DNA of 64,000 bases. Source: Leucobacter triazinivorans. Lineage in GTDB: Bacteria > Actinomycetota > Actinomycetes > Actinomycetales > Microbacteriaceae. The notes under the pieces were generated by a model, which was given only the letters and a program-made list of their open reading frames with translations, was not told the origin of the DNA and searched no databases. Within the stretch, counting starts at the first letter, position 1; each line of letters opens with the position of its first letter. The stretch lies in assembly GCF_004208635.1 (NCBI RefSeq), contig NZ_CP035806.1, positions 2,356,001 to 2,420,000 on the forward strand. Reading direction: 5' to 3'. The translations under genes were made by a program, and so were the position numbers. Of this stretch, positions 4,761 through 36,285 are shown piece by piece.

Positions 4761-4850
4761 GGTGACCTTTCTGAGGGACTCTCGGGGCCTCCCGATCGGG
4801 GGACGCACACCATTCCACGGCAGAGAGGTGACCGGCAATTACGAGACCGG

Positions 4851-5009: not shown

Positions 5010-5948
5010 TCAGGCGTGCGCGAGGCGGTGCTCGCGGGGGCTGCGGCCGTAGGTCGATTTGAAGAGCTTGCTGAAGTGACTGAGATCAACGAAGCCGCCG
5101 GCCTGCGCGATCTGCAGCACCGTGCGCTCCTGCAGCGCAGAGTCTTCCAGGTCCATCCGGCAGCGTTCGAGACGCTGCGAGCGGATGTAGCCGGAGACGG
5201 TGAGCCCCTCCTCCTGGAAGAGGTACTGCAGCTGGCGGGTGGAGACGAAGTGGGCTCTCGCGATCGCATCGGTGTTGAGATCGGGGTCGGAGAGATGCGA
5301 GTCGATGTACATCCGCACCGACTCGAAGGCCACGCCGTGCTCGTCGTTCGGCGCCGAGGCGTGGATCTCGGCGGAGAGCAGCGCCGTGATGAGCTCGAAC
5401 GCGCTGTGCATGATGCGCGATCCGCCTGCGCCCTCGAGCAGGTCGAGGTTCTCGGCCATGTGCTGCATGAAGGGGCAGATGACTCGCCCGATCCCGGAAT
5501 CGCCCGCGAGGCGGGTCGCGGTGACGGTGTGCACCAGGCTCGATGAGAGGCCGAGCATCGCGTGCGGGAAGAGCATGACGAGCGATCGCATGGGGCCGCC
5601 GTACTCGAGCGTGTACGGGCGGGAGGTGTCGTAGATCGCGGCATCGCCGGGGTTCAGCTGCGCGCTGCGCCCATCCTGCATCACCAGTCCGGCCCCCTCG
5701 AGCTGCAGACTCAGCTTGAGATGGTCGTTCCTGTCCCGGCGGATCGCCTGGGAGAGCCGGTGCACGCTGTGCGACGAGGCCGCGATGTCGGTGACGCAGA
5801 TGCCCCCGATGGTACGGCTGCGGATCGTGCCGATGAACGTCTCGGGGGATCCCGTGGTCAACGCGAGCGGCACGAATCGATTGCCGACGAGGCGCACCCA
5901 CTCGTCGAATCCGACCGACACGTGCGACTCCATCGAGTATGGCGACAT
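5010..5948 (-). CDS. AraC family transcriptional regulator
   Basis: A 312-residue regulator with an N-terminal cupin-like AraC-binding domain and a C-terminal AraC/XylS double helix-turn-helix of about 100 residues, ending in FVDLSHFSKLFKSTYGRSP. The start at MSPYS was chosen because GGAGG lies 8 bases upstream. In-frame starts further upstream lack a ribosome binding site. It is divergent from the carboxymuconolactone decarboxylase gene across a 217-bp spacer, so it probably activates the catabolic run that starts at 6166 (inference). Confidence 0.88.
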   Translation of the reverse strand: MSPYSMESHVSVGFDEWVRLVGNRFVPLALTTGSPETFIGTIRSRTIGGICVTDIAASSHSVHRLSQAIRRDRNDHLKLSLQLEGAGLVMQDGRSAQLNPGDAAIYDTSRPYTLEYGGPMRSLVMLFPHAMLGLSSSLVHTVTATRLAGDSGIGRVICPFMQHMAENLDLLEGAGGSRIMHSAFELITALLSAEIHASAPNDEHGVAFESVRMYIDSHLSDPDLNTDAIARAHFVSTRQLQYLFQEEGLTVSGYIRSQRLERCRMDLEDSALQERTVLQIAQAGGFVDLSHFSKLFKSTYGRSPREHRLAHA

Positions 5949-6165
5949 CGGATGGCCTCCTTGCCCGTCGAACATCGTCGTCCGTTCTTCACAATACGGT
6001 GATCCGTGCGACTCATCCACCTGATATCGGCCGTACCGACACACGCGTGCGCGATCTGCCAGGGCGCATGCGGCTTCGGACAAGTGCTCCGGTCCGGCGC
6101 TCGGGCACACTGAAGAGCGTTCGCGGCGAAGCTGCCGCGACGGGGAATCTGCAAAGGAGTCGATC

Positions 6166-6603
6166 GTGATCCAAGACGAGCTGTACGACGTGGGCCTCGG
6201 CCAGCGTCGCACGATGTTCGGGCCGCAGGGAGCGGAGGGGCAGGTGGAGCACACCTCGGACCTCAACGACAAACTGCAGGACTTCGTGACCCGATACTGC
6301 TTCGGCGACATCTGGCAGCGCGACGGACTCTCGTACGCCGAGCGCAGCCGGATCACCTTCGCGATGCTGATCGCACAGGGGAAGGCGCACGAGCTCCGGG
6401 TTCATGCCCGCGGGGCGCTCGAGAACGGCGTCACTCCGCTGGAACTGCGCGAGGTGGTCGTCCACTCGATCCTCTACTGCGGCATTCCCGCGGCGGTCGA
6501 GGGATTGCGAGCGGTTGAGGAGATCCTCGCCGAGCAGGGCATTCCCCAGCAGCTGGACGGCGAGTCCGACCGCGCGCAGCGCGTCGCGCCGGGAACGGAG
6601 TGA
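6166..6603 (+). CDS. Carboxymuconolactone decarboxylase family protein
   Basis: A 145-residue protein of the CMD family, whose founding member PcaC decarboxylates 4-carboxymuconolactone in the protocatechuate branch. Family features are VTRYCFGDIW near residue 43, ERSRITFAMLIA, and the C-terminal ELREVVVHSILYCGIPAAVEG. The GTG start is preceded by AAGGAG at good spacing. It is the first gene after the divergent AraC regulator and 4 bp from the next gene. No other protocatechuate genes are in the window, so the true substrate may differ. Confidence 0.85.
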   Translation: MIQDELYDVGLGQRRTMFGPQGAEGQVEHTSDLNDKLQDFVTRYCFGDIWQRDGLSYAERSRITFAMLIAQGKAHELRVHARGALENGVTPLELREVVVHSILYCGIPAAVEGLRAVEEILAEQGIPQQLDGESDRAQRVAPGTE

Positions 6604-6607
6604 TGGG

Positions 6608-7495
6608 ATGAACGAGCGTGTCACTCGGGTCGGCTTCATCGGCCTGGGCACCATGGGCGACCCCATGTCGAGCAACATCGCGGCCTCGGAGCACTTCGAT
6701 CTCGCGCTCTTCGACGTGGATCATGCGCGTGCGCGGACTCTCGCCGACCGCATCGGCGCCGTCGCCGTCGACGACATCGCGGAGCTCTCGGACCGCGAGG
6801 TGATCGTGACGATGCTGCCGACGAGCGCGATCGTGCACCGGGCCCTCATCGACGACTCCGGCCGACCGCGCATCCCCGCCCGGCCCGGGACCGTGTTCGT
6901 CGACATGAGCTCTTCGGACCCCACGGAGACGGTGGAGACGGGTGAAGCGCTGAGCCGGGCTGGGTACGCCATGGTCGATGCGCCGGTCTCCGGCGCCCGG
7001 GAGCGCGCGGTGCAGGGGACGCTGTCGATCATGCTCGGCGCCGACGACGAGGGGGCCGCGGAGCGGGCGATCCCGGTGATCGAGGCGATGAGCTCGCGCA
7101 TCTTCCGCACCGGCCGGCTCGGAACCGGTCATGCGATGAAAGCCTTGAACAACTTCGTCGCGGCGGCCGCGTTCACCGCGTCGGCCGAGGCCCTCGTCGC
7201 GGGCGGGCGCTTCGGTCTCGACCCGGCGGTCATGGTCGAGGTGCTCGACGCCTCGACGGGCCAGAGCTTCGTCACGACGCACGTCCTGCCGGACCATATC
7301 GTGGAGGGACGATACGCCAGCGGATTCGCCCTGCCGCTCTTCACGAAGGATGTGCGGATCGCGCAGCGGGTGCAGCGGGCCGCGGGCCACGACGCGCCCG
7401 TCTGCGATGCCGTGGCGGCGACGATGGGCGACGCCCTCGACGCGCTCGGCGACGTGGACCACACCCGCGCCCTCGACTTCTGGCGGGACCGGTAG
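6608..7495 (+). CDS. NAD(P)-dependent beta-hydroxyacid dehydrogenase (3-hydroxyisobutyrate dehydrogenase-like)
   Basis: A 295-residue oxidoreductase. The Rossmann motif GLGTMG is at residues 12-17, the substrate-binding DAPVSGA lies centrally, and the catalytic lysine is Lys178 in GHAMKALNNF, all diagnostic of the 3-hydroxyisobutyrate/tartronate semialdehyde family. It oxidises a beta-hydroxyacid to the semialdehyde or catalyses the reverse reaction. The start follows the CMD stop by 4 bp. The neighbouring aldehyde dehydrogenase could take a semialdehyde product further (inference). Confidence 0.92.
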   Translation: MNERVTRVGFIGLGTMGDPMSSNIAASEHFDLALFDVDHARARTLADRIGAVAVDDIAELSDREVIVTMLPTSAIVHRALIDDSGRPRIPARPGTVFVDMSSSDPTETVETGEALSRAGYAMVDAPVSGARERAVQGTLSIMLGADDEGAAERAIPVIEAMSSRIFRTGRLGTGHAMKALNNFVAAAAFTASAEALVAGGRFGLDPAVMVEVLDASTGQSFVTTHVLPDHIVEGRYASGFALPLFTKDVRIAQRVQRAAGHDAPVCDAVAATMGDALDALGDVDHTRALDFWRDR

Positions 7496-7503
7496 GAGCA
7501 GCC

Positions 7504-8049
7504 GTGGGAGTCTCGGCAGAATCAGGAGCATCGGTCTTCGACCGCCGGCTCACGCAGTGCGGCGCGGTACTCGGCGTCATCGCAGCGGGCGCGCTCGTGG
7601 TGCTCATGCTCGCGACGGTGATCGACGTGCTCGTGCGCTGGATCACCCGGGCGAGTCTCCCGGGCATGATGGAGATCGCGGAGACCGCGCTCGTCGCCTC
7701 GGTCTTCCTCGGTCTCGCGTGGACTTCGATCCAGGGCGGCCATGTCGCGGTCACCATCGTCACCGATCGGCTGAAGCCCGGCATCGCTCGGCTCGCATCG
7801 GTGCTCATCTGGGCGCTGAACACCGTGATCCTCGGCTGGATGTCCGCGGCGCTCATCCTGCGGGCCGCGCAGTCGACGAGCATGAACGAGACCCGATTCG
7901 GTCTCGTGCAGTGGCCGATCTGGCCGCTGCGCTGGATCATCGCGATCGGGGTGCTGTTCTGGGCGTTCGTGGCGATCGTCAACCTCGTCCGGGTGGTCCG
8001 GGGCCGAACGGCCTACGGAGAGTCCGTGGAGGGGGCGTCGGATGCGTAG
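7504..8049 (+). CDS. dctQ: TRAP transporter small permease (DctQ)
   Basis: A 181-residue membrane protein with four predicted transmembrane helices, the usual size and layout of the small subunit of a tripartite ATP-independent periplasmic transporter. The GTG start is preceded by AGGAG. It pairs with the large permease at 8089 and the binding protein at 9667. The residues VRWITRASLPGMMEIAE in the first third are typical of DctQ proteins. Confidence 0.9.
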   Translation: MGVSAESGASVFDRRLTQCGAVLGVIAAGALVVLMLATVIDVLVRWITRASLPGMMEIAETALVASVFLGLAWTSIQGGHVAVTIVTDRLKPGIARLASVLIWALNTVILGWMSAALILRAAQSTSMNETRFGLVQWPIWPLRWIIAIGVLFWAFVAIVNLVRVVRGRTAYGESVEGASDA

Positions 8050-8088
8050 CGCCCGCTTCCCGTCCGTCTCGCAGACCAGGAGGTCCTC

Positions 8089-9546
8089 ATGCTCGTCACG
8101 CTGATCGTGCTCACGATCGTCGTCCTGCTCATCGTGCTCCTCATGCTGCGCATGCCGGTCGCGCTCTCGCTCGCCCTCTCGGGCGCGCTGGGACTCGGGA
8201 TCCTGCAGGGCACCGGCTACACCACGAACGTGCTCGGATCGGTGCCGTTCAGCGCCACGGCGAGCTTCTCGCTGACGATCATCCCCATGTTCATCCTCAT
8301 GGGCATGTTCGCGATGCGGGCCCGGATCGCGGAGCACGTGTTCGCCGTCGCGAACCACATGGTGAGCCGGTTCCCCGGCGGCCTCGGCGTCGCCACGGTC
8401 ATGGCCTGCGCGGGCTTCTCGGCGGTCTCAGGCTCGAGCATCGGGACGGCCGCCACCATGTCGAAGCTGTCGGTCGGCCAGATGCGGGCGTACGGGTATC
8501 CGGCCGCGCTCGCCACCGGCATCGTGGCCATCGCAGGCACGCTCGGGGTCGTGATCCCTCCGAGCACCTTCCTCGTGCTCTACGCCATCATGACGGGCGA
8601 ATCGGTCGCCCAGATCCTCGCCGCAGGCATCATTCCGGGCCTGCTCTCGGCTCTCGGCTACATCGTGTACATCCTGGTCGTGGGTCATCGGCAGATCGTG
8701 CGTCCGGACGCCACGCTCGCCGATGCGGTCGCCGGGGCCCGAGCCGATGCCGCAGGGGCCGCCCGGAAGAGCTCCGGCGGCTCGGCAGGCGCCGGAGCGG
8801 GCGAGGCGCAGCTGCCTCCCGGCACGCCCGACACCGAGGCGGTGCAGCAGGTCTACGGGCGCACACTGCGCACCCTCCCGTGGCGCGGCCTCGTGCGCCT
8901 GTGCGTGATCTTCCTGATCATCCTCGGGGGAATGTTCTCCGGAGTGTTCACGTCGACCGAGTCGGCCGCGATCGCCGCGTTCGTCGCTCTAGTGATCCTG
9001 CTCTGGGAGTTCCGCCGCGATGGGTGGTCGACGATGTGGGGCAACGTGAAGGGCGCGTTGCTCGACACGGCGCAGACCACGTCCATGGTATTCATGATCC
9101 TCGTCGGGTCGAGCGTGTTCTCCACGTTCCTCATTGCCGCCCACGTGCCCGACACCGTCACCGCCTGGGTGGCGGGGCTCGACGTGCCTCCGCTCCTCAC
9201 GATCGGGCTGCTGCTCCTGCTGCTGCTGCCGCTCGGCGCCGCCCTCGATGAGATATCGGTCCTGATCATCACGATCCCGATCATCTATCCGATCGCGATG
9301 GAGCTCGGATTCCACGGGATCTGGCTCGGTCTGATGATCGTCAAGCTCACGGCGATCGGCATGGTGACGCCACCGGTCGGCATGACCTGCTTCGTGGTGT
9401 CGGGCGCGACCGGGATCCGCACGGAGACCGTCTTCAAGGGGGTGCTGCCGCTGATGCTCATGGACGTCGTGGTGTCGGCGATCCTCTTCTTCGTGCCCGC
9501 GATCACCCTGTTCCTCCCCGCGCTCGTCGCGCAGGGAGCCGGTTGA
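8089..9546 (+). CDS. dctM: TRAP transporter large permease (DctM)
   Basis: A 485-residue polytopic protein, the ion-driven channel subunit of the TRAP importer. Family marks include SGSSIGTAATMSKL, the GIVAIAGTLGVVIPPS segment, and GMVTPPVGMTCFV near the end. CAGGAGG precedes the ATG. A hydrophilic Ala/Gly-rich loop of about 50 residues between membrane segments (around residues 205-255) is longer than usual for the family. TRAP systems import carboxylates and related acids on a sodium gradient. Confidence 0.92.
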   Translation: MLVTLIVLTIVVLLIVLLMLRMPVALSLALSGALGLGILQGTGYTTNVLGSVPFSATASFSLTIIPMFILMGMFAMRARIAEHVFAVANHMVSRFPGGLGVATVMACAGFSAVSGSSIGTAATMSKLSVGQMRAYGYPAALATGIVAIAGTLGVVIPPSTFLVLYAIMTGESVAQILAAGIIPGLLSALGYIVYILVVGHRQIVRPDATLADAVAGARADAAGAARKSSGGSAGAGAGEAQLPPGTPDTEAVQQVYGRTLRTLPWRGLVRLCVIFLIILGGMFSGVFTSTESAAIAAFVALVILLWEFRRDGWSTMWGNVKGALLDTAQTTSMVFMILVGSSVFSTFLIAAHVPDTVTAWVAGLDVPPLLTIGLLLLLLLPLGAALDEISVLIITIPIIYPIAMELGFHGIWLGLMIVKLTAIGMVTPPVGMTCFVVSGATGIRTETVFKGVLPLMLMDVVVSAILFFVPAITLFLPALVAQGAG

Positions 9547-9666
9547 CGGTTCCTGCGCGAACGCCTCACCCGCCTGCGCCGCTCGCCAACGACACCGCTC
9601 GGGCGCCGCTGAACAATGAACACATACTCGCGCCGCACGGCAGCGGGAAACCGAGAAAGGACGACG

Positions 9667-10821
9667 ATGTTCTCCACACCACACCACCCCGGGCGGTTCA
9701 GCCGCATGACCGGCGCCGTTGCGCTCGCCGCGGTCGCGGGCCTTGCGCTGGCAGGATGCTCGGGCATCAACAGCTCTGCCGCGGGCGAGGGCGACGGCTC
9801 CGGTGAAACGGTCACCTGGACGCTCGTCACCGGAGCGCAGGCCGACACCCCGAACGCGGCCGTGCAGAACTGGTTCCTCGACCGGGTCGAAGAGGCGACC
9901 GACGGCCGGATCAGCTTCGAGCGCACGGCGACCGAGGCGCTCTGCAAGGCCCCGGAGGTCGCCGACTGCGTGCGCGACGGTCGCGCGCAGATCGGCGTGA
10001 CGGTGCCCGACTACACCCCGCAGTACTTCCCCTCCACCAGCATGGTGAGCATTCCGTTCCTGAGCCAGAATGCGCAGGCCGCGATGCAGTCGATCTACGA
10101 CCTGCACGAGGACTACGCGCCGGCGCAGGCGATCATGGAGCGCAACGGCCTGCACCACGTGGCGACCTGGCCGGTCGGCCGCTTCCTGCTCGGCGGTCAC
10201 GAGCCGATCGAGAGCGTCGCGCAGTTCCAGGGCGCCCAGGTGCGGGTCTCCGGGCCCATCATCCAGCAGGCGATCGGCGACCAGGGCGCGAACATCGTGG
10301 CGGTCACGGCTCCCGAAACGTACGAGGCGGTCGAGCGCGGAGTCGTGTCGACCATCGGCGGCGCCATCGACTTCCCGGTGAACTATGGGCTCATGGAACT
10401 GCTGCCCGACTGGACCGACCCCGGGATCGGCCAGTACTCGACGTTCGGCATGTGGGTGAATGCCGAGGCCTACGATGCGCTTCCCGATGACCTGCGCGAG
10501 CAGTTCGACCAGATCGCCGAAGAGCTGAACACCGGCGCGGGCATCGCCGCGTTCAACGAGGTCGCGGCAGGCCAGTGCCAGCAGATGCAGGACGCCCCGA
10601 CGGTCGAGTCGCTGAACGCGTGGGACGAGGCGGACACGCAGGCGTGGCAGGACGCGCTCGGTGATTCCGGCCAGGAGATGTGGATCGAGCTCGCCACGGA
10701 GCAGGGCCTCGAGGACGCGGAGGGCGTGCTCGAGCGGTACATCGCCGGGCTCGAGACGTACGACGACGCGGCCTACGACGACGCGACGGTCGCCTGCGTG
10801 GCGTCGTTCGAGAACCGCTGA
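9667..10821 (+). CDS. dctP: TRAP transporter substrate-binding lipoprotein (DctP)
   Basis: A 384-residue solute receptor. The chosen start MFSTPH has GAAAGGA upstream and gives a signal peptide with lipobox LAGC. An in-frame ATG at 9616 has no ribosome binding site and would spoil the signal peptide. The body shows the DctP fold, with the conserved arginine region RVSGPIIQQAIGDQGANIVAV. It delivers substrate to the DctQM channel. Downstream genes follow closely, so the TRAP and aldehyde dehydrogenase genes are probably one transcript. Confidence 0.9.
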   Translation: MFSTPHHPGRFSRMTGAVALAAVAGLALAGCSGINSSAAGEGDGSGETVTWTLVTGAQADTPNAAVQNWFLDRVEEATDGRISFERTATEALCKAPEVADCVRDGRAQIGVTVPDYTPQYFPSTSMVSIPFLSQNAQAAMQSIYDLHEDYAPAQAIMERNGLHHVATWPVGRFLLGGHEPIESVAQFQGAQVRVSGPIIQQAIGDQGANIVAVTAPETYEAVERGVVSTIGGAIDFPVNYGLMELLPDWTDPGIGQYSTFGMWVNAEAYDALPDDLREQFDQIAEELNTGAGIAAFNEVAAGQCQQMQDAPTVESLNAWDEADTQAWQDALGDSGQEMWIELATEQGLEDAEGVLERYIAGLETYDDAAYDDATVACVASFENR

Positions 10822-10850
10822 TCCGCGAACGAGTCGATAGGAGTGATGAG

Positions 10851-12254
10851 ATGACGGAGAACGCGCTGTTGGACGCGGTCACGGTGGATGCGGATTCGGG
10901 ACGTCCGATCCCGGATGCTGCGACGGGTGAGACGATCGGATTTGCGCCGGTGCAGTCGGTGGCGGACCTCGACGAGGCCGTGGATGCGGCCCGGGCGGCA
11001 CAGATCGAATGGGCGCGCCTGGGACACGAGGAGCGGTCTCGGGTCCTGCGCCTCGCGGCAGAAGAGATCGAGACGCATGCCGAGGAACTCGCTGGAGTGA
11101 TCGCGCGTGAGCAGGGCAAGCCGCTGAACGGCGCGGGTGCCCGGTTCGAGGCCGCCGGATGCGCGGTGTGGGTGCGGAACGCGGCGGATACGGTGATCGA
11201 GCCCGAGGTGCTGTTCGAGGCCGAGGGCACGCGCTCGGAGATGCACTACGTGCCGTTGGGTGTGGTTGCGGCCATAGGACCCTGGAACTGGCCGGCACTG
11301 ATTGGGATCTGGCAGATCGCTCCGGCATTGCGGATGGGCAACGCAGTGGTCGTAAAGCCGAGCAGCTATACGCCGTTGAGTGTGCTCGCGGTGGTCGAGC
11401 TCATGAACCGGCACCTGCCGGACGGGCTACTCGCGGTGGTGTCGGGCAGCCGTGAGGTGGGTGCCGCCATTGCGCGGCATCCGGGGATCGACAAGGTGAT
11501 GTTCACGGGGTCCACGGAGACCGGGCGGGAGATCGTGCGGAGTTCTGCGGAGAATCTGGCGCGACTGACACTGGAGCTCGGCGGCAATGATCCGGGAATC
11601 GTGCTGCCCGGTGCAGATGCGCGAGCGATCGCGGAGAGCCTCTTCTGGGGGATCTTCATCAACACGGGGCAGACATGCGCGGCGCTGAAGCGGTTGTACG
11701 TGCACGACTCGGTGCACGACGCTGTGGTTGCGGAACTCCAGGCGCTCGCCGAGTCGACCCCGATGGGTCCCGGCACCGGGGAGGAGAACCTGCTCGGCCC
11801 GCTGACGACGCCGCAGCAGTTCGAGATCGTCGCGCGCCTCGTGGACGACGCCCGGGCTCGTGGCGCGAAGATCGTCACGGGGGGCGAGCCGGCTCCGGAA
11901 CTCGGCGCGCACTTCTATCGCACCACGATCGTGACGGATATCGAGGACGGGGCGGCGCTGGTCGATGAGGAGCAGTTCGGGCCGGTCATCCCGGTGATCC
12001 GGTACTCGGACCTGGAGGATGCGATCGCTCGGGCGAACGCGTCGGAGCAGGGCCTCGGGGCGTCGGTTTGGGGGGACCCTGTTCAGGCGCGCGAGGTGGC
12101 CGAGCGCATCGAGGCGGGGACCGTGTGGATCAATCAGCACGGCACGCTCAACCCGATGGTGCCCTTCGGAGGAGTGAAGGCCTCCGGCTACGGGCTGGAG
12201 TTCGGTGCGCACGGATTGCAGGCGGTGGCCGCACCCAAGGTCATCACCGTGTGA
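10851..12254 (+). CDS. NAD(P)-dependent aldehyde dehydrogenase
   Basis: A 467-residue member of the aldehyde dehydrogenase superfamily, oxidising an aldehyde to its acid. The signature residues are present: IGPWNWP, the cofactor motif FTGSTETGREI, the general base Glu242 in LELGGNDPG, and the catalytic Cys276 in NTGQTC. GGAG precedes the ATG. The gene has somewhat more T- and A-ending codons than its neighbours (for instance around 11230-11450), hinting at separate acquisition. The substrate is unknown; neighbours suggest an aldehyde from P450 or hydroxyacid chemistry. Confidence 0.93.
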   Translation: MTENALLDAVTVDADSGRPIPDAATGETIGFAPVQSVADLDEAVDAARAAQIEWARLGHEERSRVLRLAAEEIETHAEELAGVIAREQGKPLNGAGARFEAAGCAVWVRNAADTVIEPEVLFEAEGTRSEMHYVPLGVVAAIGPWNWPALIGIWQIAPALRMGNAVVVKPSSYTPLSVLAVVELMNRHLPDGLLAVVSGSREVGAAIARHPGIDKVMFTGSTETGREIVRSSAENLARLTLELGGNDPGIVLPGADARAIAESLFWGIFINTGQTCAALKRLYVHDSVHDAVVAELQALAESTPMGPGTGEENLLGPLTTPQQFEIVARLVDDARARGAKIVTGGEPAPELGAHFYRTTIVTDIEDGAALVDEEQFGPVIPVIRYSDLEDAIARANASEQGLGASVWGDPVQAREVAERIEAGTVWINQHGTLNPMVPFGGVKASGYGLEFGAHGLQAVAAPKVITV

Positions 12255-12348
12255 GCTTCGACCGTGCGCGGCGGCGGGGCGCTGCCCTGCCGCCGCGCGC
12301 TCCTCTACTTATTCGGATCAGCCGCATTTGATCTGCAACTCAATCCGT

Positions 12349-12378
12349 TTGACTCGTGCATTGACACCCGCCGATGAT
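12349..12378 (+). promoter_or_regulatory. Possible sigma70-type promoter of the MHS transporter gene
   Basis: TTGACT (12349-12354) and GATGAT (12373-12378) are spaced by 18 bp, about 57 bp ahead of the transporter start, in a stretch that is locally less GC-rich. This is a motif match only. Confidence 0.35.
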
Positions 12379-12435
12379 GTGTGTGGTCCTCGCGCAGTCG
12401 TGCAGAGGGCGTCACAACGGACAAGGGAGTCTGCA

Positions 12436-13776
12436 ATGTCCACGACGGCACCGATCCGCCCTCGCCGCGAAGGCCGGCGCGTCGCGATCGCGACCATGGT
12501 CGGCACCACCATCGAGTGGTACGACTTCTTCATCTACGCGAACACGGCGGCGCTCGTGTTCGCTCAGCTCTTCTTCGAGCCGCTCGGGGCTCAGGCGGCG
12601 CTGCTGGTCTCGTTCGCGACGGTCGGCATCAGCTTCCTGTTCCGCCCGCTCGGAGCCATCGTCGCCGGGCACCTCGGCGACCGCGTCGGTCGCCGGGCCA
12701 TGCTGGTGATGACGCTCGTGCTCATGGGTGCTGCGACGACGCTGATCGGGCTGCTGCCGACGTACGCGGCCGCGGGCATCGTCGCCCCGATCCTGCTCGT
12801 GCTCCTGCGCATCGTGCAGGGCTTCTCCGCAGGTGGAGAGTGGGGCGGCGCCGCGCTGATGGCCGTCGAACACGCCCCCGACGGAAAGCGCGGGCTGTTC
12901 GGCTCGGCGCCCCAACTCGGTGTGCCCTTCGGCATGCTGCTCGCCTCGGGCGTGCTGGCGATCACCACCGCGGTATTCGGCCCGGATGGGTTCCTCGAGT
13001 TCGGCTGGCGGATCCCATTCCTCGTCGGCGTCGTGCTGCTGGTCGTCGGCTTCATCATCCGCCGCTCGGTCGAGGAGAGCCCGGTCTTCCTGGAACTGCG
13101 CGAGAGCAAGGCCCGCTCCAAGATGCCGCTCGTGGAACTGCTGAGGAAGCACTGGTGGCTCGTCATCCTCGTGGCCCTCACCTTCGCCGGCAACAACGCG
13201 GCGGGCTACATGTCGACCGGCGGCTATGTGCTCTCCTACGCCACGACCGTGCACGGCATGGATCGCACCCAGATCCTGTGGTGCGTGACGCTGGCCTCTG
13301 CGGTATGGGCCTGCACCACGCTCTTCGGCGGCTGGCTGTCCGACCGCTGGCGCAGCCGCCGCAAGGTGTACCTGGTCGGCTACGCGCTGCAGATCCTGTG
13401 GGCGTTCCCGCTCTTCTTGCTGGTCGATACGCAGATCGTCGTGATGATCGCGATCTCGCTCTCCGCATGGATGGTCTCCACCGGACTCACCTACGGCCCG
13501 CAGGCCGCGTACTTCGCCGAGATCTTCCCATCGCGTGTACGCTATTCCGGCGTCTCGCTCTCGTACGCGCTCGGCGCGATCCTCGGCGGTGCGTTCGCGC
13601 CCACGATCGCCACCTGGCTGCAGCAGAGCACCGGCTGGATCGGTTCGGTCTCGATCTATCTCGCGCTCATGGCCGCGGTATCGATCGCCGCTGTGCTCGT
13701 GATCAAGGACCGCTGGGGGGCACCGCTCATCGAGCGCGAGGACTCCGCGCCCCGGGAGCCCGTCGCTGCGCACTGA
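12436..13776 (+). CDS. MFS transporter, metabolite:H+ symporter (MHS) family
   Basis: A 446-residue, 12-helix symporter. The N-terminal MVGTTIEWYDFFIYA is the hallmark of the MHS branch (KgtP, ShiA, ProP and aromatic acid carriers), followed by the loop GHLGDRVGRRAML between helices 2 and 3 and GEWGGAALMAVE. GGGAG precedes the ATG. It sits between the aldehyde dehydrogenase and a convergent LysR gene and probably imports an organic acid. Such transporters are frequent beside catabolic genes. Confidence 0.92.
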   Translation: MSTTAPIRPRREGRRVAIATMVGTTIEWYDFFIYANTAALVFAQLFFEPLGAQAALLVSFATVGISFLFRPLGAIVAGHLGDRVGRRAMLVMTLVLMGAATTLIGLLPTYAAAGIVAPILLVLLRIVQGFSAGGEWGGAALMAVEHAPDGKRGLFGSAPQLGVPFGMLLASGVLAITTAVFGPDGFLEFGWRIPFLVGVVLLVVGFIIRRSVEESPVFLELRESKARSKMPLVELLRKHWWLVILVALTFAGNNAAGYMSTGGYVLSYATTVHGMDRTQILWCVTLASAVWACTTLFGGWLSDRWRSRRKVYLVGYALQILWAFPLFLLVDTQIVVMIAISLSAWMVSTGLTYGPQAAYFAEIFPSRVRYSGVSLSYALGAILGGAFAPTIATWLQQSTGWIGSVSIYLALMAAVSIAAVLVIKDRWGAPLIEREDSAPREPVAAH

Positions 13777-13786
13777 GCGGCGCGCG

Positions 13787-14710
13787 TCACACAGGCCAGG
13801 CGACGCCCCGCGCGAATTCGATGAGGGCGCGGGTCCGCGCGGGGACCGGCCGGTCGGGCGCCCAGATCATATCGATCGCGACGGGTCGTACCGCCGGCAC
13901 GATCGTCTTCGCGACGAGGGGCAGCCCCTCGTAGCTGTTCGGATTCGCGACGCGGGAGACCAGGATTCCGTAGCCGAGCCCACGCGCGACGAGCGTGCGT
14001 ACCACCTCGTAGCCTGCGGTGCGGTGCCGGATGCGCGGACGGAGGCCGTGCTCGGCGAACACCGAGAGCGTGTGCTCGCTGGAGGGCGGGGCGTCGAGCA
14101 GGATCAGGTCGTCGTCCACCAGTTCTTCGAGCCGAACCGTCGTGCGGCCGGCCAGCGGATGGTCGGCCGCGAGCAGTGCGTGCGCCTGCAGCTCGTACAG
14201 CCGGACGCGTTCGGTGTCGCCGGGCACGAGCATGTCGTACACGAAGGCGACGTCGATGCGGCCGGAGGCGAGATCCTCGGCCAGCCGGTCCTGCGTCGCC
14301 TCTCGGATCGAGAGCTCGACCTCCGGGTGCAGTGCCGCGAAGTCCTGCAGCAGCGGTGGCAGGATCGCGGGTGCGAGCGTGGGGTAGCAGCCGATCACCA
14401 CCGGACCCGACAGCCGCCCGCCGCCGCCGACCGATCGATGCAGTTCCTCTGCCTCCGCGAGCATGCGCCGTGCGGTGAGGACGAGCTGCTCGCCCGCCGG
14501 CGTGAGCGTGAGCCCGTGGGCGCGGCGTCGCACGCAGAGGCGTTCGCGCAGCGCCGACTCGAGCTCGGTGATGGCGTCGGACATCGCGGAGGGGGAGATG
14601 CGCAGCGCCGCGGAGGCCCCCGTGATCGTGCCCTCGTCGGCTGCGGCGACGAAGTATGCGAGCTGCCGCAGCGTGAACGCCGGAAGCGGCGTGCTGAGCG
14701 GATCGGTCAT
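13787..14710 (-). CDS. LysR family transcriptional regulator
   Basis: A 307-residue regulator: the winged helix-turn-helix occupies residues 10-70 (LRQLAYFVAAADEGTITGAS and the recognition region ISPSAMSDAI), then a periplasmic-binding-like effector domain. It is divergent from the P450 fusion gene, the standard LysR arrangement, with a perfect palindrome between the two. The ATG at 14710 aligns with the family's normal N-terminus; an upstream extension would overlap the operator region. It probably controls the P450 fusion gene in response to a pathway compound (inference). Confidence 0.92.
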   Translation of the reverse strand: MTDPLSTPLPAFTLRQLAYFVAAADEGTITGASAALRISPSAMSDAITELESALRERLCVRRRAHGLTLTPAGEQLVLTARRMLAEAEELHRSVGGGGRLSGPVVIGCYPTLAPAILPPLLQDFAALHPEVELSIREATQDRLAEDLASGRIDVAFVYDMLVPGDTERVRLYELQAHALLAADHPLAGRTTVRLEELVDDDLILLDAPPSSEHTLSVFAEHGLRPRIRHRTAGYEVVRTLVARGLGYGILVSRVANPNSYEGLPLVAKTIVPAVRPVAIDMIWAPDRPVPARTRALIEFARGVAWPV

Positions 14711-14804
14711 GCCGACCCTGCGTCGCACTGCTGCGGCGGCCTCGCCGATCGGGTGCGCCGAAAGACGCGGTCTAGCTTCATGCGCTCCATTATCCCATCT
14801 AATC

Positions 14805-14826
14805 GAATTATCAATGCAGATAATTC
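14805..14826. promoter_or_regulatory. LysR-type operator candidate (GAATTATC-N6-GATAATTC)
   Basis: A perfect 8-bp inverted repeat with a 6-bp centre in the 185-bp divergent spacer between lysR and the P450 fusion. It stands out as AT-rich in a GC-rich region. Its size and T-N11-A-like spacing fit a LysR recognition-binding site. Binding itself is not shown. Confidence 0.6.
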
Positions 14827-14895
14827 CGCTTTTCCTTCCGTTATGCGGCACGCATACTCGGAGGCGTCCGGCTGTTCAGAACGACGAGGTGTGCA

Positions 14896-17853
14896 ATGAC
14901 GAGCAACGAGGCTCCGGTCGCGGACTGGGTGACCATCCCCGACCTCTACCGCGACCCCTTTCCCATCTACGAGCGGCTGCGCGCGGAGGGCGGCGTGCAC
15001 TGGGTTCCGCAGGTGGGCCGCTACCTGATCACCTCGTACGAGGCGGTGCACGAGACCGAGCTCGATCAAGAGGTCTTCTCCGCCGATGAGCAGGGGTCGC
15101 TGCAGATCCGAGCCATGGGGCACTCGATGCTGCGCCGCGACGATCCCGAGCACTACGTCGAGCGAAAGGCCTGGCAGCCCGCGCTCAGGCCGGGAGCGGT
15201 GCAGCGCATCTGGAAGTCGAAGTTCGAGCGTAACGCCGAGCGCTACCTGGAGGAGCTCGTCGCGAGGGGGCCGGGCGCCGACCTGATCTGGGACTTCGCC
15301 GCCCCGTTCGCCGCGGAGAGCCTGCGCGAGCTCATCGGCCTGCACAACGCCACGCAGCAGGACCTGCAGCGGTGGTCGCAGACCATGATCGACGCCACCG
15401 GCAACTATGCCGACGATCCCGAGGTGTGGGCACTCGGCAAGCAGTCCTTCGACGAGGTCGACGCCGCGCTCGACGAGATGCTCGTGTGGCACGCCGCGAA
15501 CCCGAATGAGTCGCTGCTGTCGCAGCTGCTGCAGATCCCCGACTACCGGATGCCCCTCGACCGCATCCGGGCCAACGTCAAGATGACGATCGGCGGCGGG
15601 CTCAACGAGCCGCGCGACGCACTCGGCGTGGCGGCCTGGGGCCTCCTGACCCACCCGGAGCAGCGGGCCGCCGTCGATCGGGATCCGTCGCTCTGGCACG
15701 CGGTCTTCGACGAGACGATTCGCTGGGTGGCGCCCATCGGGCTCTACTCGCGCCAGGCGACGCGGGATACCGAGCTCGCCGGGGTGCGGCTGCCCGCCGG
15801 AGCCCGGCTGGGCATCTGCATTCTCTCGGCCAATCGCGACGAGCGCGTCTGGGCGCGGCCCGCGGACTTCGACATTCGCCGCGAGGCGAAACCGCATCTC
15901 GCGTTCGGGAAGGGCGTGCACGTCTGCCTCGGGGCATGGGCCGCCCGCGCCGAGGTCGCCGAGGTCGCACTTCCGCTGCTCTTCTCGTCGCTCGAGGGGC
16001 TCTCGCTCGTCGACGAGGATCCCGCGGAGATCGGCGGGTGGGTGTTCCGGGGCATGCTGAAGCTGCCCGTGACGTGGAACGGCCGCAGAACCGTCGCACC
16101 CGAGGCTCGCGATCGCGACGCCGCCGCGCCCCGCGTCGCCGTCGTGGGTTCCGGCCCCGCCGGGAGTTTCACAGCGCAAGCGCTGCGCCGCACGTTCCCC
16201 GCCGCGCCGATCGACGTGTTCGACGAGCTTCCCACCCCCTACGGGCTCGTGCGCTACGGTGTCGCGGCCGACCATCAGGGCACGAAGGCCGTGGCGCGCC
16301 AGTTCGACCGGCTCTTCAGCGAGGAGGGAGTGCGGTTCCGCGGCAACTGCCGGCTCGGCGTCGACGTCGCGCTCGAAGAACTCGAGCGGGCGTACGACGT
16401 GGTGGTGCTCGCCACGGGCATGCACTGCGATGCCCGCCTGCCCGTACCCGGGGCGACGCTCGCTCGTGTGCGCGGGGCCGGCGCCGTCACCCGATTCCTC
16501 AACGGTCACCCCGATGAGGCTGCGCCCGACCCCCTGGGCGAGCAGGTCGTCGTGGTGGGGCACGGCAATGTGGCGATGGATCTCGCGCGACTCGTCGCGC
16601 GGGACGCCGCCGGGCTCGAGGGCTCGGACATCGACGACGCCGCGCACGGGCGCTTCACCGACGGCGTGCGCACCGTGCACCTCGTCGGGCGGAGCGCCCC
16701 GGCAGATGCGAAGTTCGACCCGGTGATGGTGCGTGAGCTCGCCGGCCTGCAGGGTGTGCGCCACGTGGTGCACGGCGCGGGCGAGCTCTCCGATGACGGC
16801 CGCGACGCCCGCATCGACGCCGTTCGGGCGCTCATCGCGGGGGGAGACGCCACCGACGAGCCTCGCGTCAGCGTCGAGTGGTGGTTCGGACTGGCGCCGG
16901 AGCGCCTCGAGGGTGACGAGCGGGTGGAAGCCGCGGTGTTCCGCGGTCCGGACGGCGAGGTGCGGATCCCCGCGTCGGACGTCGTGACGGCGATCGGCTT
17001 CACAGCCGACGAGGGCAGCCCGGTCGAGCCGGGCTCGCACCCTGACGGTCGCGTTTCGCCCGGGCTCTACACTGCCGGGTGGCTGCGCCGTGGGCCTCGC
17101 GGGACGATCCCCGACCAGCGCGCCGATGCGCGCGAGCTCGCCCGCATCGTCGCGGCGGATCTGCAGTCCGGCGCCGTCACGGTGGGGGCTCCGGGGCTGC
17201 CCGGGGTGGAGGGCGAGACCGACTTCGACGGCTGGCGCCGCATCGACATGCGAGAGCGGCTCACGGCGGCTCCGGGCCGCGAGCGTGCGAAGCTGCCGAG
17301 CCGAGAAGCGCAACTCGCGGCGGCGCGAGACGAGCACCTCGAGCTGCCGCCGCTACGGACGGCGGCATCCGCGGAGATCGGGGCGGGGGTGCCGACGACC
17401 ATCCTCTTCGGCACCGAGTCGGGCGGCGCCGAGCTGGTCGCCGACGAGCTCGCGCGGATGCTGGGAGCAGACGCCGATGTCGAGGTGCGCGATCTCGCCG
17501 AGACGACTGCGGCCGGGCTCGATCCCGCCCGCCTGCACCTGCTCGTCTGCGCGACCTACGGCGACGGCGAAGTGCCGGGCGCGGCGCAGCCCTTCCACCG
17601 GGAACTGTGCGTGGAGCGGCCCGACCTGAGCGGCGTGCGCTATGCCGTGTTCGGGATGGGCGACCGCAGCTACGACCGCACGTACTCGCGCGGCAGCGAG
17701 CTGGTCGACGAGGCGCTGCAGGCCTGCGGCGCCTCACGGCTGGGGGAGTACGGGCGGCACGACGCGGGCGGGTCCATTTCCGCCGCTGACGCGGCGCGGG
17801 ACTGGGCTGCGGGGGTCTTCGCAGAGGTGTCGGCCGCGACGGTCGGGCGGTAG
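14896..17853 (+). CDS. Cytochrome P450 - FprA-type ferredoxin reductase - flavodoxin fusion
   Basis: A 985-residue, three-domain monooxygenase that appears self-sufficient. Residues 1-400 are a P450: ETIR (273-276) of the K helix and the heme loop FGKGVHVCLG with Cys344 as iron ligand. The I helix reads GGGLNEPRD (233-241) and lacks the usual acid-threonine pair, resembling the Glu-Pro motif I recall from GcoA-type (CYP255) aryl-O-demethylases. Residues 413-815 match adrenodoxin/FprA-type NADPH reductases: FAD motif GSGPAG (418-423), PTPYGLVRYGVA, NADP motif GHGNVA (555-560), and GWLRRGPRGTIPDQ from 728. Residues 834-985 are a flavodoxin, with FMN phosphate loop GTESGG (839-844), ATYGDGEVPG and FGMGDRSY. 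ATG follows GACGAGG. It is divergent from lysR. The electron route NADPH-FAD-FMN-heme is inferred. Substrate unknown. Confidence 0.93.
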   Translation: MTSNEAPVADWVTIPDLYRDPFPIYERLRAEGGVHWVPQVGRYLITSYEAVHETELDQEVFSADEQGSLQIRAMGHSMLRRDDPEHYVERKAWQPALRPGAVQRIWKSKFERNAERYLEELVARGPGADLIWDFAAPFAAESLRELIGLHNATQQDLQRWSQTMIDATGNYADDPEVWALGKQSFDEVDAALDEMLVWHAANPNESLLSQLLQIPDYRMPLDRIRANVKMTIGGGLNEPRDALGVAAWGLLTHPEQRAAVDRDPSLWHAVFDETIRWVAPIGLYSRQATRDTELAGVRLPAGARLGICILSANRDERVWARPADFDIRREAKPHLAFGKGVHVCLGAWAARAEVAEVALPLLFSSLEGLSLVDEDPAEIGGWVFRGMLKLPVTWNGRRTVAPEARDRDAAAPRVAVVGSGPAGSFTAQALRRTFPAAPIDVFDELPTPYGLVRYGVAADHQGTKAVARQFDRLFSEEGVRFRGNCRLGVDVALEELERAYDVVVLATGMHCDARLPVPGATLARVRGAGAVTRFLNGHPDEAAPDPLGEQVVVVGHGNVAMDLARLVARDAAGLEGSDIDDAAHGRFTDGVRTVHLVGRSAPADAKFDPVMVRELAGLQGVRHVVHGAGELSDDGRDARIDAVRALIAGGDATDEPRVSVEWWFGLAPERLEGDERVEAAVFRGPDGEVRIPASDVVTAIGFTADEGSPVEPGSHPDGRVSPGLYTAGWLRRGPRGTIPDQRADARELARIVAADLQSGAVTVGAPGLPGVEGETDFDGWRRIDMRERLTAAPGRERAKLPSREAQLAAARDEHLELPPLRTAASAEIGAGVPTTILFGTESGGAELVADELARMLGADADVEVRDLAETTAAGLDPARLHLLVCATYGDGEVPGAAQPFHRELCVERPDLSGVRYAVFGMGDRSYDRTYSRGSELVDEALQACGASRLGEYGRHDAGGSISAADAARDWAAGVFAEVSAATVGR

Positions 17854-26034: not shown

Positions 26035-26797
26035 ACGTGTCCCCTTCGACAGCGGTGGGCCCCTTACCCACGGAGTGTCTTCTTCGAGCAGCAGCGCGTC
26101 CCCCCGGCGCGTCGGGCGGCCCGAGCCCGAGACTCGAGCCAGGGAGAGCTGCCCTCATCATAGTGAGCCGTTCGTAGCCTTGGGAAGGCTCCCCGTCGGC
26201 AGCGCCGGGATGCTCTGCGTGCGGCACAGCATCCCGGCGCTGTCTGGACCGCCGGGCGGATGTTACGAGGGAGAGGGCCCGGCGGACGACCTGCGGCGCC
26301 TTCGGGGTGAGGGGATAGAAGGCATCGCCGGTGCGAGCCGGAGTTCCCCGAAGGTGCGGCTCCAGACGCGCATTCACGATTGAATCAGTCGACTGGACCC
26401 CGCGCCAGGCGCTCCCCCAGAACCAGGGGTGCCCACGCCCCATCTCGCGTGCGAAGAACTGCGGACCTGAGAGATGCCGGAAGATCCAGCGTCTCCTGAA
26501 CCGACGAGGCGGGTGGCCTCCGCAGCGACCGGCTCATCCTGTCCTCGCGATGGCTTCGCAAGAGCGGGAACCCAAGTGCGTTGCACGTAACTTCTGCTCT
26601 CACGCAGCACCCCCCTATAAGTGGGGGAATGTCTGGAGAACGCTCGATGTCGAGCGCCGGCTCGCGCAGACTTGCTGAGGTTGTCGGCCCATCGGGGCCG
26701 CGGATCACTCTGGGTGAAGGCTTTGCAATGCACGACGCCGCATGACGCAGAGGGATCACGAAGAAAACACATTCGAGACTGGAAGGTCATTTCCACG
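26035..26797. other. Long divergent intergenic region between response regulator and pilus operon
   Basis: No gene is supported on either strand; frames across it are short and unlike known proteins. It contains the long hairpin at 26200-26242 and a second hairpin, CCCCC (26611-26615) TATAAGT GGGGG (26623-26627), 170 bp ahead of the adhesin start. Base composition is lower in GC than the rest of the window from about 26570 on. The pilus promoter must lie here, but no convincing -35/-10 pair can be named. Confidence 0.6.
26200..26242. repeat. Perfect 15-bp inverted repeat hairpin in the pilus upstream region
   Basis: CAGCGCCGGGATGCT (26200-26214) and its exact reverse complement (26228-26242) flank a 13-nt loop. 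No T-run follows on either strand, so it is not a standard terminator; it may be a regulatory or recombination site. Confidence 0.75.
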
Positions 26798-29700
26798 ATG
26801 ACACGTGCGGTACATCGCCTATCCCATACCGGGGGCTATCGGCATGTCTCCAAGAATCGGATCTGGGTGGCGATTGTCGCCGTTGTGATGCTGGCGATCG
26901 GGCTCCTCTCTCCCGCGCAGGCGCATGCAGATGCGAGTTCGCAACCGACGCTGAGCATTGCCGCGCTCACGCCCGCCACGCAAGCCTCCGGTGTCGCGTT
27001 CAATTACAGCATCTCCTACGGCTGCAGCAATGTGAACGCCGATCCGTGCGCCACCGATCCAGTCATTACGATTCCGCTCGGCGATGCCGCCGATCTGCCG
27101 ATCCAGGTCGGCGCGAACCCGATGATCGTGGACTGGGAAGTCGACAGCGCCGGAAATCTGATCATTCGACTCGATGACCTCGTGCAGGGCACGTCCGGCG
27201 TGATCGGGTTCACCATCACCCCGCCGAACCAGACCACGCCCGATGGTACGAGCTGGACGCTTGCGCCGACCATGACCTTCAGCGACGACACGCCGACGGT
27301 GAACGCACCGGGTGTGACCTCCACCGCCACCGCCGCCGCCTCGCTGGATCTGACGAAGACCGCGAACGTCGGGTACTTCCACCCCGGAGACGTGGTCGTC
27401 TACTCTCTCGCGTGGGACTGCCCGACTGCCGGTTGGGGGTACGGTGCTGAAGACCTCACGCAGTTGGTTCTCTCAGATACGCTTCCCGCCGGGCTCACCT
27501 ACGTGTCGAGCTCGCCGAGCGGTGCGGTCGTATCCGGACAGACGGTGACCTTCACGTTCTCCGCGGCGCAACTCGGCGACCGTTGCTCGAAGGGATCCGG
27601 AACCGCTGCGCCGGTCACGATCAGCGCCCAAGTCGACGCGAGCATTCCCGACGCGACGGTGATCGAGAATACGGCGACGGCTACGGGGACGTCTCTGAGC
27701 GGTGCCACCGTCACCGATTCGAGCAGCGACGACATCACCGTGGTTGACACGATTCCTGGTGCGACGACATCGAAACTCGGCATCGGGCCCCTGCTGAACT
27801 CGGTGGGGGATTACCAGAAGGACTACAACCTGAACGGGTATCGATCCGCGACCTACCCCGGCCCGTGGCTCGGGCTCGGTGCGGCAGCTCAGCCGTCGAG
27901 CAGCTTCCATCTGACGCCACTTCCGAACGGAACCAATGATGCGCTCATGTTTCGAATCGAAGCGATGTATCAGCTCGATATCCAGCAGGGCCAGCCGGGC
28001 GTCGAGTTGACCCTGACCGACCCCATGCCCTGCACCACGAACGTGTCGGGTGCTGCGTATTCGAGCTACCCCGCCGGCGGAGCTCTCTGCACGGATCCCG
28101 CCTTCCACCCGACGCTCGTCACCGTGAGGACCCCGGCCGATGTCGGTCGAGTAGGCATTCCTGAGAGTCTCGTGGTCAATGCTCGCCTCACCGACGGCAC
28201 GGTCGTCGCACTGACGCTGCAAGCCTCCTCGGGGTCGGCGCCGAACGGTGCAACTGTTCGCACCTATCGTGTGCCCGACAGCGTGGTGGGTCAGGTCGCG
28301 GAGATCTCCATCCCGCGTACCGCGGGGATGACCAACACCAGGACACAGGTCTTGATCGGCGGCTACGTCGACGAAGACCGGAATGCCGGTGATCTGATCC
28401 GCAATCAGGGAACGGTCGAGTCCTTCGTCCCGGAGGAGTCCTCGCCATACGCGGCATCACTGACCTCCATCGGCACCATCTACGTCAAGGAAGGCCCCCA
28501 GATCGGTGCCAAGAAGGCGTACTCGACGACGAGCAAATCGTTCACGCTCACCTCGGAGGTCTTCCTCTCCGGTGAGACGACCGGCGACTTGACGTTCACC
28601 GATACCCTCCCGGCGGGATGGGCCGTCGATGGGCCGATCAGCGTGGACGTGGCGCAGTACACTCCGCTCGGATACGTCAATGACATCGACACGACGACCT
28701 CGGTCGCCGCGGACCCCAGCACAGGGCGTACGACGCTGACCGTCGTCGTGACCGCGGAGACGATCAATTCGCTCTTGGATTCGGGTCTCGGCGAACGGTT
28801 CCGATTCGAGGTGAATGTGCCCTCGAAGGCCCCGTCGCCCGGAAGCTACAGCAACACGGTTTCGGTGAACCTGTCGGACCCCGGGACCCAGAGCATGTGT
28901 CTCCAGGGGACCGCAGTGTCCGGGCTGAGCGGTGCTGACTTCACCTGCCGTGCCACGACGTCGTTCGTCGTGAATCCAGACCCGACCTCGGAGGCCGTGC
29001 AGGTCGTCAAGTCTGTGCGGGGCAGCAATGACACCTCGTTCAAGACGTTCCCGGCGATCGGGTACGTCGAGGGCACCGGCGGTACCGCGACATTCCGTCT
29101 GGACTGGACGAACAAGAGCATCGCATCGATGACCGACGTGGTCGTCTACGACCTGCTGCCGACACCCGGAGACACGGGCACGATACCGACGACGGTCGAC
29201 CAGCAGCGCGGCAGCACGTTCGAACCGACATTGGCGAGCATCGCTCCGCTCCCGGCAGGGATCTCCGCCTACTATTCCGTCTCGGACAATCCGTGTCGCC
29301 CGGAGGTGCTGCCCAATGCCGATAATCCTGGCTGCGTCGACGACTGGACAGCGATGCCGGCGAGCCCGTCTGCGGCGCTCTTGCAGCAGATCACGGCGCT
29401 GAAATTCGTTTCGAGTCAGACCTATGCGTTCAACACCGGGTTCCGCATCGAGATCAATATGACCACGCCCAGTGGCATCACCGATTCCGACATCGCCTGG
29501 AATACGTTCGCAGCATCGCAGACGAACGCGGACAGCGGTCAGGTACTCCCTGCGGTGGAGGCCGCTCGAGTGGGCGTGGCGCATAAGGACTACTCCCATA
29601 TCACCATCGATAAGGTCGTCGACCAGGCGCAGGCGCACGTCGGCGAGGAGCTCACGTACACGGTGACCGCTGTCAACGATGGCGGTCGAGACCTCTCGAA

Positions 29701-30436: not shown

Positions 30437-30506
30437 CGCGGTTCATCCGGGTGTTTGGTTCTTGATCACTGGTTTTGTAGTTCATAAGAGAAAGGGGCTT
30501 GACCTC

Positions 30507-36283: not shown

Positions 36284-36285
36284 GA

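Follow-up and report, generated by a model that had tools for sequence, protein, structure and literature searches.

Can a cytochrome P450 carry its whole electron supply, flavin reductase and flavodoxin alike, in one polypeptide, and if so, what does such an enzyme do and how did it arise? The question is raised by a 985-codon gene of Leucobacter triazinivorans, found in a stretch of 64,000 nucleotides (contig NZ_CP035806.1, positions 2,356,001 to 2,420,000, forward strand), here called the window and numbered from its first letter. An earlier note on this DNA had read the gene as a fusion of P450, FprA-type reductase and flavodoxin, and had taken the layout to lie outside the described classes. 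The reading favoured here, with a probability of about 0.7, is a self-sufficient P450: an XplB-type reductase and a flavodoxin would stand behind a CYP1232A-type P450 that O-demethylates methoxyaryl acetates. Architecture, motifs, relatedness, synteny and the single origin of the fusion are taken from sequence; from these we infer the electron path, the substrate and the cofactor preference. The parts of the gene, with motifs for flavin adenine dinucleotide (FAD), flavin mononucleotide (FMN) and the nicotinamide cofactor (NAD(P)H), are as follows.

14896-17853, + strand: P450-reductase-flavodoxin gene, 985 codons from ATG, a single open frame
14896-16080, + strand: P450 domain, residues 1-395; 62% identity (243/391) to CYP1232A24, PDB 6g71
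15592-15618, + strand: I-helix GGGLNEPRD, residues 233-241, with Glu-Pro; the same in 6g71 and in most unfused relatives shown
15904-15933, + strand: heme-ligand loop FGKGVHVCLG, residues 337-346, with Cys344
16081-16128, + strand: linker 1, residues 396-411
16129-17292, + strand: flavodoxin-linked (XplB-type) reductase domain of the adrenodoxin-reductase superfamily, residues 412-799
16147-16164, + strand: FAD motif GSGPAG, residues 418-423
16558-16575, + strand: NAD(P)H motif GHGNVA, residues 555-560
16690-16695, + strand: R599-S600 of the reductase domain, the R-S of flavodoxin-linked reductases
17293-17394, + strand: linker 2, residues 800-833
17395-17850, + strand: flavodoxin domain, residues 834-980 plus tail
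17410-17433, + strand: FMN phosphate loop GTESGGAE, residues 839-846 (GTESGG, 839-844)

The three-part frame described in the earlier note holds up. Pfam places p450 at residues 268-354 of the product, Pyr_redox_2 at 413-569 and Flavodoxin_1 at 836-959, all over cut-off; PDB sequence matches cover residues 5-395 (P450, 6g71), 411-414 onwards (adrenodoxin reductase/FprA) and 834-978 (flavodoxin). The heme cysteine and the FAD, nicotinamide and FMN motifs also lie where that note had put them. In an alignment of 32 fused members, the heme signature (ExxR and FxxGxHxCxG: E273, R276, F337, G340, H342, C344, G346) is invariant, and the motif residues for FAD, NAD(P)H and FMN are largely so; linker 1 measures 13-57 residues and linker 2 33-39. 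The I-helix has Glu-Pro where an acid-Thr pair is the usual occupant. A fold search gave no flavodoxin for the C-terminal domain among the matches listed, because matches to the P450 and the reductase fill these.

The fused form is a family. A homologue search scored 8000 candidates and gave 276 matches; statements about homologues rest on the best 120 of the 276. All 120 have the full P450-reductase-flavodoxin layout, at 65-99% identity, and in 119 the three Pfam domains extend over 97-100% of the query. One match (P0094) has all three parts, a linker 1 of about 90 residues, largely Gly/Ala, which lies outside the alignment of 32, and an insertion inside the reductase domain; another among those listed (P0002), with 978/985 residues identical, may represent the window's own species. 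The matches listed come from Leucobacter, Agrococcus, Microbacterium, Serinicoccus, Arthrobacter, Isoptericola, Labedella, Agromyces and metagenomes, mostly under the bare name 'cytochrome P450'; two sources say 'cytochrome P450/flavodoxin'. The fused form is one clade in both trees described below. The earlier note would have counted many characterised homologues as a refutation; homologues are many, but no characterised one was found. Among these sequences the trees indicate one origin of the fusion.

Could an assembly error or frameshift, also considered in the earlier note, have united neighbouring genes? Split versions of such genes do stand side by side elsewhere, but the layout shared by the best 120 matches, the fused clade in the trees and the one-contig genome from which the window comes exclude such an artefact for practical purposes.

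In a sample of the genus, 17 of 37 genomes have the fusion gene, 16 in one frame and one (G029) in two. The Microbacteriaceae have it in 20/398 genomes, spread over four genera; 25 had matched, and those with a P450 only (G157, G327, G443) or a reductase-flavodoxin only (G245, G330) were excluded. In Micrococcaceae, P450 and reductase share one frame of at least 1007 codons in 15/216 genomes, with the flavodoxin part inside the fetched flank in only 4 of the 15. A phylum-wide sample of 396 genomes gave, at E <= 1e-110, the window's own genome only. The open frame is single at 23 of 28 named loci, and one of the others (L078) is cut by a contig end. Against four Leucobacter loci, the pairwise ratio of nonsynonymous to synonymous substitution rates (dN/dS) is 0.06-0.10 for the P450, 0.10-0.19 for the reductase and 0.11-0.23 for the flavodoxin. 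The linkers have higher values than any of the three domains; for linker 1, looser, they are 0.29-1.05 in three pairs and not computable in the fourth.

What kind of P450 heads this chain? Its nearest solved relative is the Arthrobacter protein named CYP1232A24 in the title of PDB entry 6g71. P450s above about 55% identity to a named member are placed in its subfamily, and the identity here is 62%. A tree of 46 P450 rows gathers all 31 fused domains into a single clade (support 99/95), sister to CYP1232A24 (98/96), the end branch of 6g71 being long and its placement flagged by the program as less sure; unfused relatives, 44-63% identical, fall outside this group. CYP1232A24 shares the I-helix GGGLNEPRD and the heme loop FGKGVHVCLG. 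Of 155 residues invariant in the 31 fused P450s, it keeps 131, the 13 unfused relatives 97-129 and GcoA 59, counts that would speak for a CYP1232 kind of pocket generally, and not for the particular substrate of CYP1232A24. Next in structural likeness come the P450s GcoA and SyoA, whose structures were determined with guaiacol and syringol (GcoA 26-28% identical over the aligned structures).

A second set of residues bears on partners. At 20 positions of the P450, 45 distinct fused sequences are set apart from 25 distinct unfused ones, and 12 of these positions are shared with CYP1232A24; since the two groups are related, this should be taken as a lead and not as a test. Five of the 12, W93 and Q94 in the C-helix and K339, V343 and L345 in the heme-ligand loop, occur in 44-45 of the 45 fused sequences and in CYP1232A24, and in 0-2 of the 25 unfused; ferredoxin-type relatives most often have Y, G, G, F and A at these places, in that order. 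Lys339 is present in 45/45 fused sequences and 6g71, and the position is Gly, Ala or Ser in 25/25 unfused relatives. In P450s it is generally on the C-helix and the heme-ligand loop that redox partners dock. Partner choice may have left its mark on this proximal face, a suggestion that enters the class proposal made below.

The reductase domain bears on partners too. It is 42% identical to the reductase encoded beside an XplA-like gene in Gordonia KTR9 and Rhodococcus DN22, and 36-45% identical to the reductases of three other reductase/flavodoxin gene sets. We take the genes of Gordonia KTR9 (plasmid pGKT2) and Rhodococcus DN22 to be XplA/XplB; their records read cytochrome P450 and FAD-dependent oxidoreductase. 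The flavodoxin domain has 40% identity with XplA's N-terminal flavodoxin, its best PDB match is cindoxin (4oxx), and the FMN domain of BM3 (1bvy) is also among its matches. In a reductase tree of 44 rows, 27 fused domains form one clade (98/93), and fused, XplB and split reductases together (42 rows) are separated from a pair of FprA-like proteins that the window's own genome encodes (L003, L004). Positions 599-600 follow the same division: R-S in 27/27 fused rows, 2/2 XplB rows and 12/13 split rows (R-G in L104), R-R in FprA and adrenodoxin reductase (1lqt, 1cjc) and in the two own-genome homologues.

In the R-R pair both arginines bind the 2'-phosphate of NADPH, and R-S would drop one of the two. 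A preference for NADPH should therefore not be assumed, and the R-S pair suggests NADH as a possible donor. XplB has been assayed with NADH, according to one review (PMC8081977), and cindoxin reductase uses NADPH according to another, cited again below (PMC9687028).

The 'FprA-type reductase' of the earlier note is thus right as to superfamily and wrong as to branch: by tree and R-S pair, the domain is of the XplB type, flavodoxin-linked, and not FprA proper. Nor do the data support a flavodoxin that substitutes here for FprA's ferredoxin, as had been supposed. Because the reductase groups with flavodoxin-linked reductases and shares their R-S, flavodoxin is, on this placement, the usual partner of the branch, and the new element is the fusion.

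Several gene arrangements resemble the fusion in part. Matches that looked like two-domain FprA-flavodoxin proteins, and were considered as a step toward it, cross stop codons; the fetched DNA has two tandem genes, and the candidate was rejected. Most such tandem pairs, where DNA was fetched, adjoin another P450 of 24-27% identity. The window's own genome has a separate trio of P450, reductase and flavodoxin genes (G000:C1:772118-775330; L105 6119-9349), whose P450 is 24% identical to the fused P450 and 29% to part of XplA. A region (L030, 5968-8937) of the Enterobacter hormaechei plasmid p48880_VIM_4 has adjacent genes for an XplA-like P450, a flavodoxin and an XplB-like reductase; the label 'CinB-like' was rejected for this trio, its P450 being XplA-like (344 bits). 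Klebsiella plasmids (H6-H9) have a like trio of P450, flavodoxin and XplB-like reductase, XplA-likeness having been tested for L030 only.

How did the fusion arise? The unfused cousins lie beside another redox system. A [2Fe-2S] ferredoxin was found at 32/32 of their examined loci and a BphA4-type reductase at 31/32. At least three of these 32 loci are one and the same gene (L084, L129, L150); L033 and L084 supplied the two queries, and in 15 cases the flanks measured 1.5 kb. The only FprA/flavodoxin match near them, at L106, is the neighbouring fusion itself. Several of these loci keep the same LysR and transporter neighbours as the fusion. At L106 (G017:C1:1738000-1757000) both redox designs are adjacent: a CYP1232-like P450 of the ferredoxin type (44%; 7416-8687), accompanied by a LysR, a transporter, a ferredoxin and a reductase of its own, adjoins the fused gene (11495-14470).

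An order-wide search of 396 genomes gave 14 matches, 10 with frames of at least 1009 amino acids and 4 unfused; 216 Micrococcaceae genomes gave 54, 15 fused and 39 of lower identity, of which the 17 examined are all unfused with ferredoxin neighbours (22 lay outside the examination). Split CYP1232A24-type genes with flavodoxin neighbours were not found in either set. The gene cluster of CYP1232A24, in the review's passages, holds a flavodoxin and a flavodoxin reductase as partners (PMC9687028); since no such split locus was found, the split intermediate is drawn from that sentence alone. Because the unfused cousins adjoin a [2Fe-2S] ferredoxin and another reductase, the simplest reading that the comparison suggests is a change of redox partner, then a single fusion. 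That is, an ancestor with ferredoxin and BphA4-type reductase would have passed to a flavodoxin system, and the genes for P450, reductase and flavodoxin would then have fused once, in or near Micrococcales.

The enzyme might work as follows: NAD(P)H would give a hydride to the FAD of the reductase domain; single electrons would pass from FAD to the FMN of the C-terminal flavodoxin; the flavodoxin would swing to the proximal face of the P450 and reduce the heme twice per turnover, a movement to be set against a first linker of variable and a second of near-constant length; the P450 would then O-demethylate a methoxy-substituted aryl acetate of the homovanillate or 3,4-dimethoxyphenylacetate class. 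Products would be formaldehyde and homoprotocatechuate or its precursor, for degradation by the HpaD/E/G/H/I pathway.

The choice of substrate draws on kinship and neighbourhood. CYP1232A24 reportedly O-demethylates homovanillate and 3,4-dimethoxyphenylacetate, methoxyphenylacetates, in papaverine breakdown. Within 10 kb of the gene, 10/28 named loci encode one or more of HpaD, E, G, H and I (HpaD at 8/28); homoprotocatechuate (hpa) genes lie near the fusion in Agrococcus, Microbacterium, Labedella, Serinicoccus and a Micrococcales isolate. In the 398 Microbacteriaceae genomes, HpaD occurs in 20/20 with the fusion and in 123/378 without it (Fisher p 5e-10, in a test that ignores kinship, all 20 belonging to the four genera), and within 10 kb of the fusion in 6 of the 20. 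With kinship to CYP1232A24, hpa neighbourhood and co-occurrence, and a CYP1232 kind of pocket taken together, O-demethylation of methoxyaryl acetates seems the likeliest reaction.

Two groups of observations weigh against the favoured reading. The first concerns the chain. The gene lies in two frames in Leucobacter massiliensis (L079), Brevibacterium renqingii (L082), one metagenome-assembled genome (L081) and G387 (L046), where the last part is in the other frame; these copies may represent fission, decay or sequencing error. An in-frame stop falls within the flavodoxin part in Gulosibacter chungangensis (L074; the L045 match has the same stop count), and G431 has an internal stop. The fold model reaches a predicted template modelling score of 0.57, and domain contacts cannot be read from it for that reason. 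The copies in two frames, together with a separate reductase and flavodoxin gene pair in the window's genome, would suit a P450 that is not self-sufficient but reduced in trans, or a reductase-flavodoxin that serves other enzymes, with the fusion as scaffold. The motif residues largely invariant in 32 members, the low dN/dS of all three domains, and the lack of any [2Fe-2S] ferredoxin or BphA4-type reductase beside the 15 Micrococcaceae fusions (flanks of at most 1.5 kb) make this improbable.

The second group concerns the substrate. The partners of CYP1232A24 enter from a single sentence of the review (PMC9687028); its 131 of 155 residues give no clear indication of a common substrate, with cousins reaching 129. 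At the Leucobacter loci the fusion is not beside hpa genes; in the window's genome HpaD/E/G/H relatives lie elsewhere, at 2.99 Mb, and the neighbourhood (TRAP transporter, aldehyde dehydrogenase) names no substrate. Of the 37 Leucobacter genomes sampled, 36 have HpaD at E <= 1e-60 and 35 have it over the family cut-off, fusion or not; because it is near-universal there, co-occurrence within the genus was rejected as a test. The 5 unfused named loci are all without an hpa gene nearby; two other unfused loci, L109 and L110, are on the same stretch as HpaD. A self-sufficient enzyme for another substrate (a methoxybenzoate, a guaiacol-type phenol, an alkaloid or a hydroxylation substrate), with hpa as a side association, is an alternative, if an unlikely one: the structural likeness to GcoA and SyoA, the protocatechuate 3,4-dioxygenase gene beside unfused L033, the distance between the window gene and hpa, and the residues kept by ferredoxin-type cousins all suit it, whereas the 59/155 of GcoA and the hpa genes near 10 of 28 fusions do not.

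Immediately upstream, the window has the following features.

14886-14891, + strand: Shine-Dalgarno-like GAGGTG before the ATG, identical in 5/7 aligned loci
14805-14826, no strand: inverted repeat GAATTATC-N6-GATAATTC, a candidate operator
13787-14851 (open frame), - strand: divergent LysR-type regulator, with a relative at 27/39 compared loci
12205-13776, + strand: metabolite:H+ symporter of the major facilitator superfamily, with a relative at 18/39 compared loci

The inverted repeat is perfect in the window, and one arm is imperfect in the other aligned loci. The true LysR start is probably internal to the open frame, which would leave the repeat intergenic. Further out, 5010-12254 holds genes for a FeaR-like AraC regulator, a 3-hydroxyisobutyrate-dehydrogenase-like enzyme, a TRAP transporter and an aldehyde dehydrogenase, a set also kept near the fusion in L057, L058, L059 and L077; regulator, transporter and aldehyde dehydrogenase would suit a route by which an aromatic precursor is taken up and oxidised, without showing it. 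Elsewhere the window encodes a tyrosine phosphatase family protein (1176-2075) with a phosphonate-type ATP-binding cassette transporter (2072-4838, - strand; PhnE permease, PhnD-like binding protein), pilus-type surface proteins (26621-32021; a DUF11/SpaA prealbumin-fold protein, and a pilin with GramPos_pilinD1) and a DsbA-like thioredoxin adjoining a DsbD-type membrane protein (35396-36999, - strand).

Has this architecture been described? In 5.39 million open papers, subscription articles being beyond reach and the 2019 CYP1232A24 paper (Klenk et al.) outside the search, no described P450-reductase-flavodoxin chain of this type was found, in agreement with the earlier note. Prior description, there or in another subscription article, seems rather unlikely: Klenk et al. 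studied this P450 family and its gene clusters, as the review's passages relate (PMC9687028), and two sources name homologues 'cytochrome P450/flavodoxin', but the open search gave no description and a 2025 paper still lists mainly classes VII and VIII (PMC11889516). The parts, and their combinations as separate genes, are known already; the single-chain form seems undescribed, though databases contain it.

This matters for several reasons. Self-sufficient P450s are prized biocatalysts, and sorted mainly into those two classes; a widespread natural one-chain flavodoxin system would offer a new redox module to borrow. With closely related ferredoxin-using cousins for comparison, the partner specificity of P450s can be tested directly at a few named residues. 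A gene that databases mostly call just 'cytochrome P450' gains a likely job, demethylation of methoxyaryl acetates. If the reading is true, evolution has arrived at the layout of an engineered fusion with adrenodoxin.

Where, then, does the enzyme stand among known systems? GcoA (CYP255A), which has a separate reductase of its own, is set apart by its 26-28% identity and by the other partners to which the fused P450 is joined. XplA is a partial flavodoxin-P450 fusion, and XplA/XplB (CYP177A) shares the reductase branch and flavodoxin type; XplA's flavodoxin is N-terminal, its reductase a separate gene and its P450 26% identical, whereas here the flavodoxin is C-terminal and the reductase in the chain. 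FprA and adrenodoxin reductase proper have the R-R pair and a ferredoxin partner, and the fused protein has neither. CYP102 (P450BM3, class VIII) also joins P450, FAD and FMN in one chain, but with a diflavin reductase of the cytochrome P450 reductase kind, its FMN domain before an FNR-type FAD domain (PMC9687028); here an adrenodoxin-reductase-like FAD domain precedes the FMN domain. CYP116B (class VII) is likewise a three-part self-sufficient chain with N-terminal P450; it uses an FMN reductase, of the phthalate-dioxygenase (PFOR) type, and a [2Fe-2S] ferredoxin (PMC9687028, PMC11889516), where the fused protein has an FAD reductase and a flavodoxin, with no ferredoxin or iron-sulfur domain among its Pfam matches. 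The contrasts with CYP102, CYP116B and XplA drawn in the earlier note are thus borne out by domains and their order. The cyclohexanecarboxylate P450 of Paraburkholderia terrae KU-64 is natural and self-sufficient too, in the order ferredoxin, FAD domain, FCD-like, P450 (PMC9687028). The engineered P450(11beta)-adrenodoxin reductase-adrenodoxin (Cao et al. 2000) has the same order, if its title gives the order; it is man-made, with adrenodoxin as carrier.

Two related systems are split. CYP1232A24, the sister P450, was solved as a 405-residue P450 and has flavodoxin and flavodoxin reductase as separate partners (PMC9687028); the fused protein has all three in one chain. P450cin, cindoxin and cindoxin reductase are three proteins with the electron order proposed here, NADPH-FAD-FMN-heme (PMC9687028), the likeness resting on that order and on the cindoxin structure match, as the sequence of cindoxin reductase was outside the comparison. 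Chains of this P450cin/XplB type go by the name class III. By its sequence the fused enzyme, with an FAD reductase of the flavodoxin-linked branch and an FMN flavodoxin joined to a P450, is a one-chain version of these split systems. To the wider proposal we give a little better than even odds: that it is a further natural self-sufficient class, the class III chain in one polypeptide, born once through a ferredoxin-to-flavodoxin swap in an aromatic O-demethylase and bearing the marks of that swap on its proximal face.

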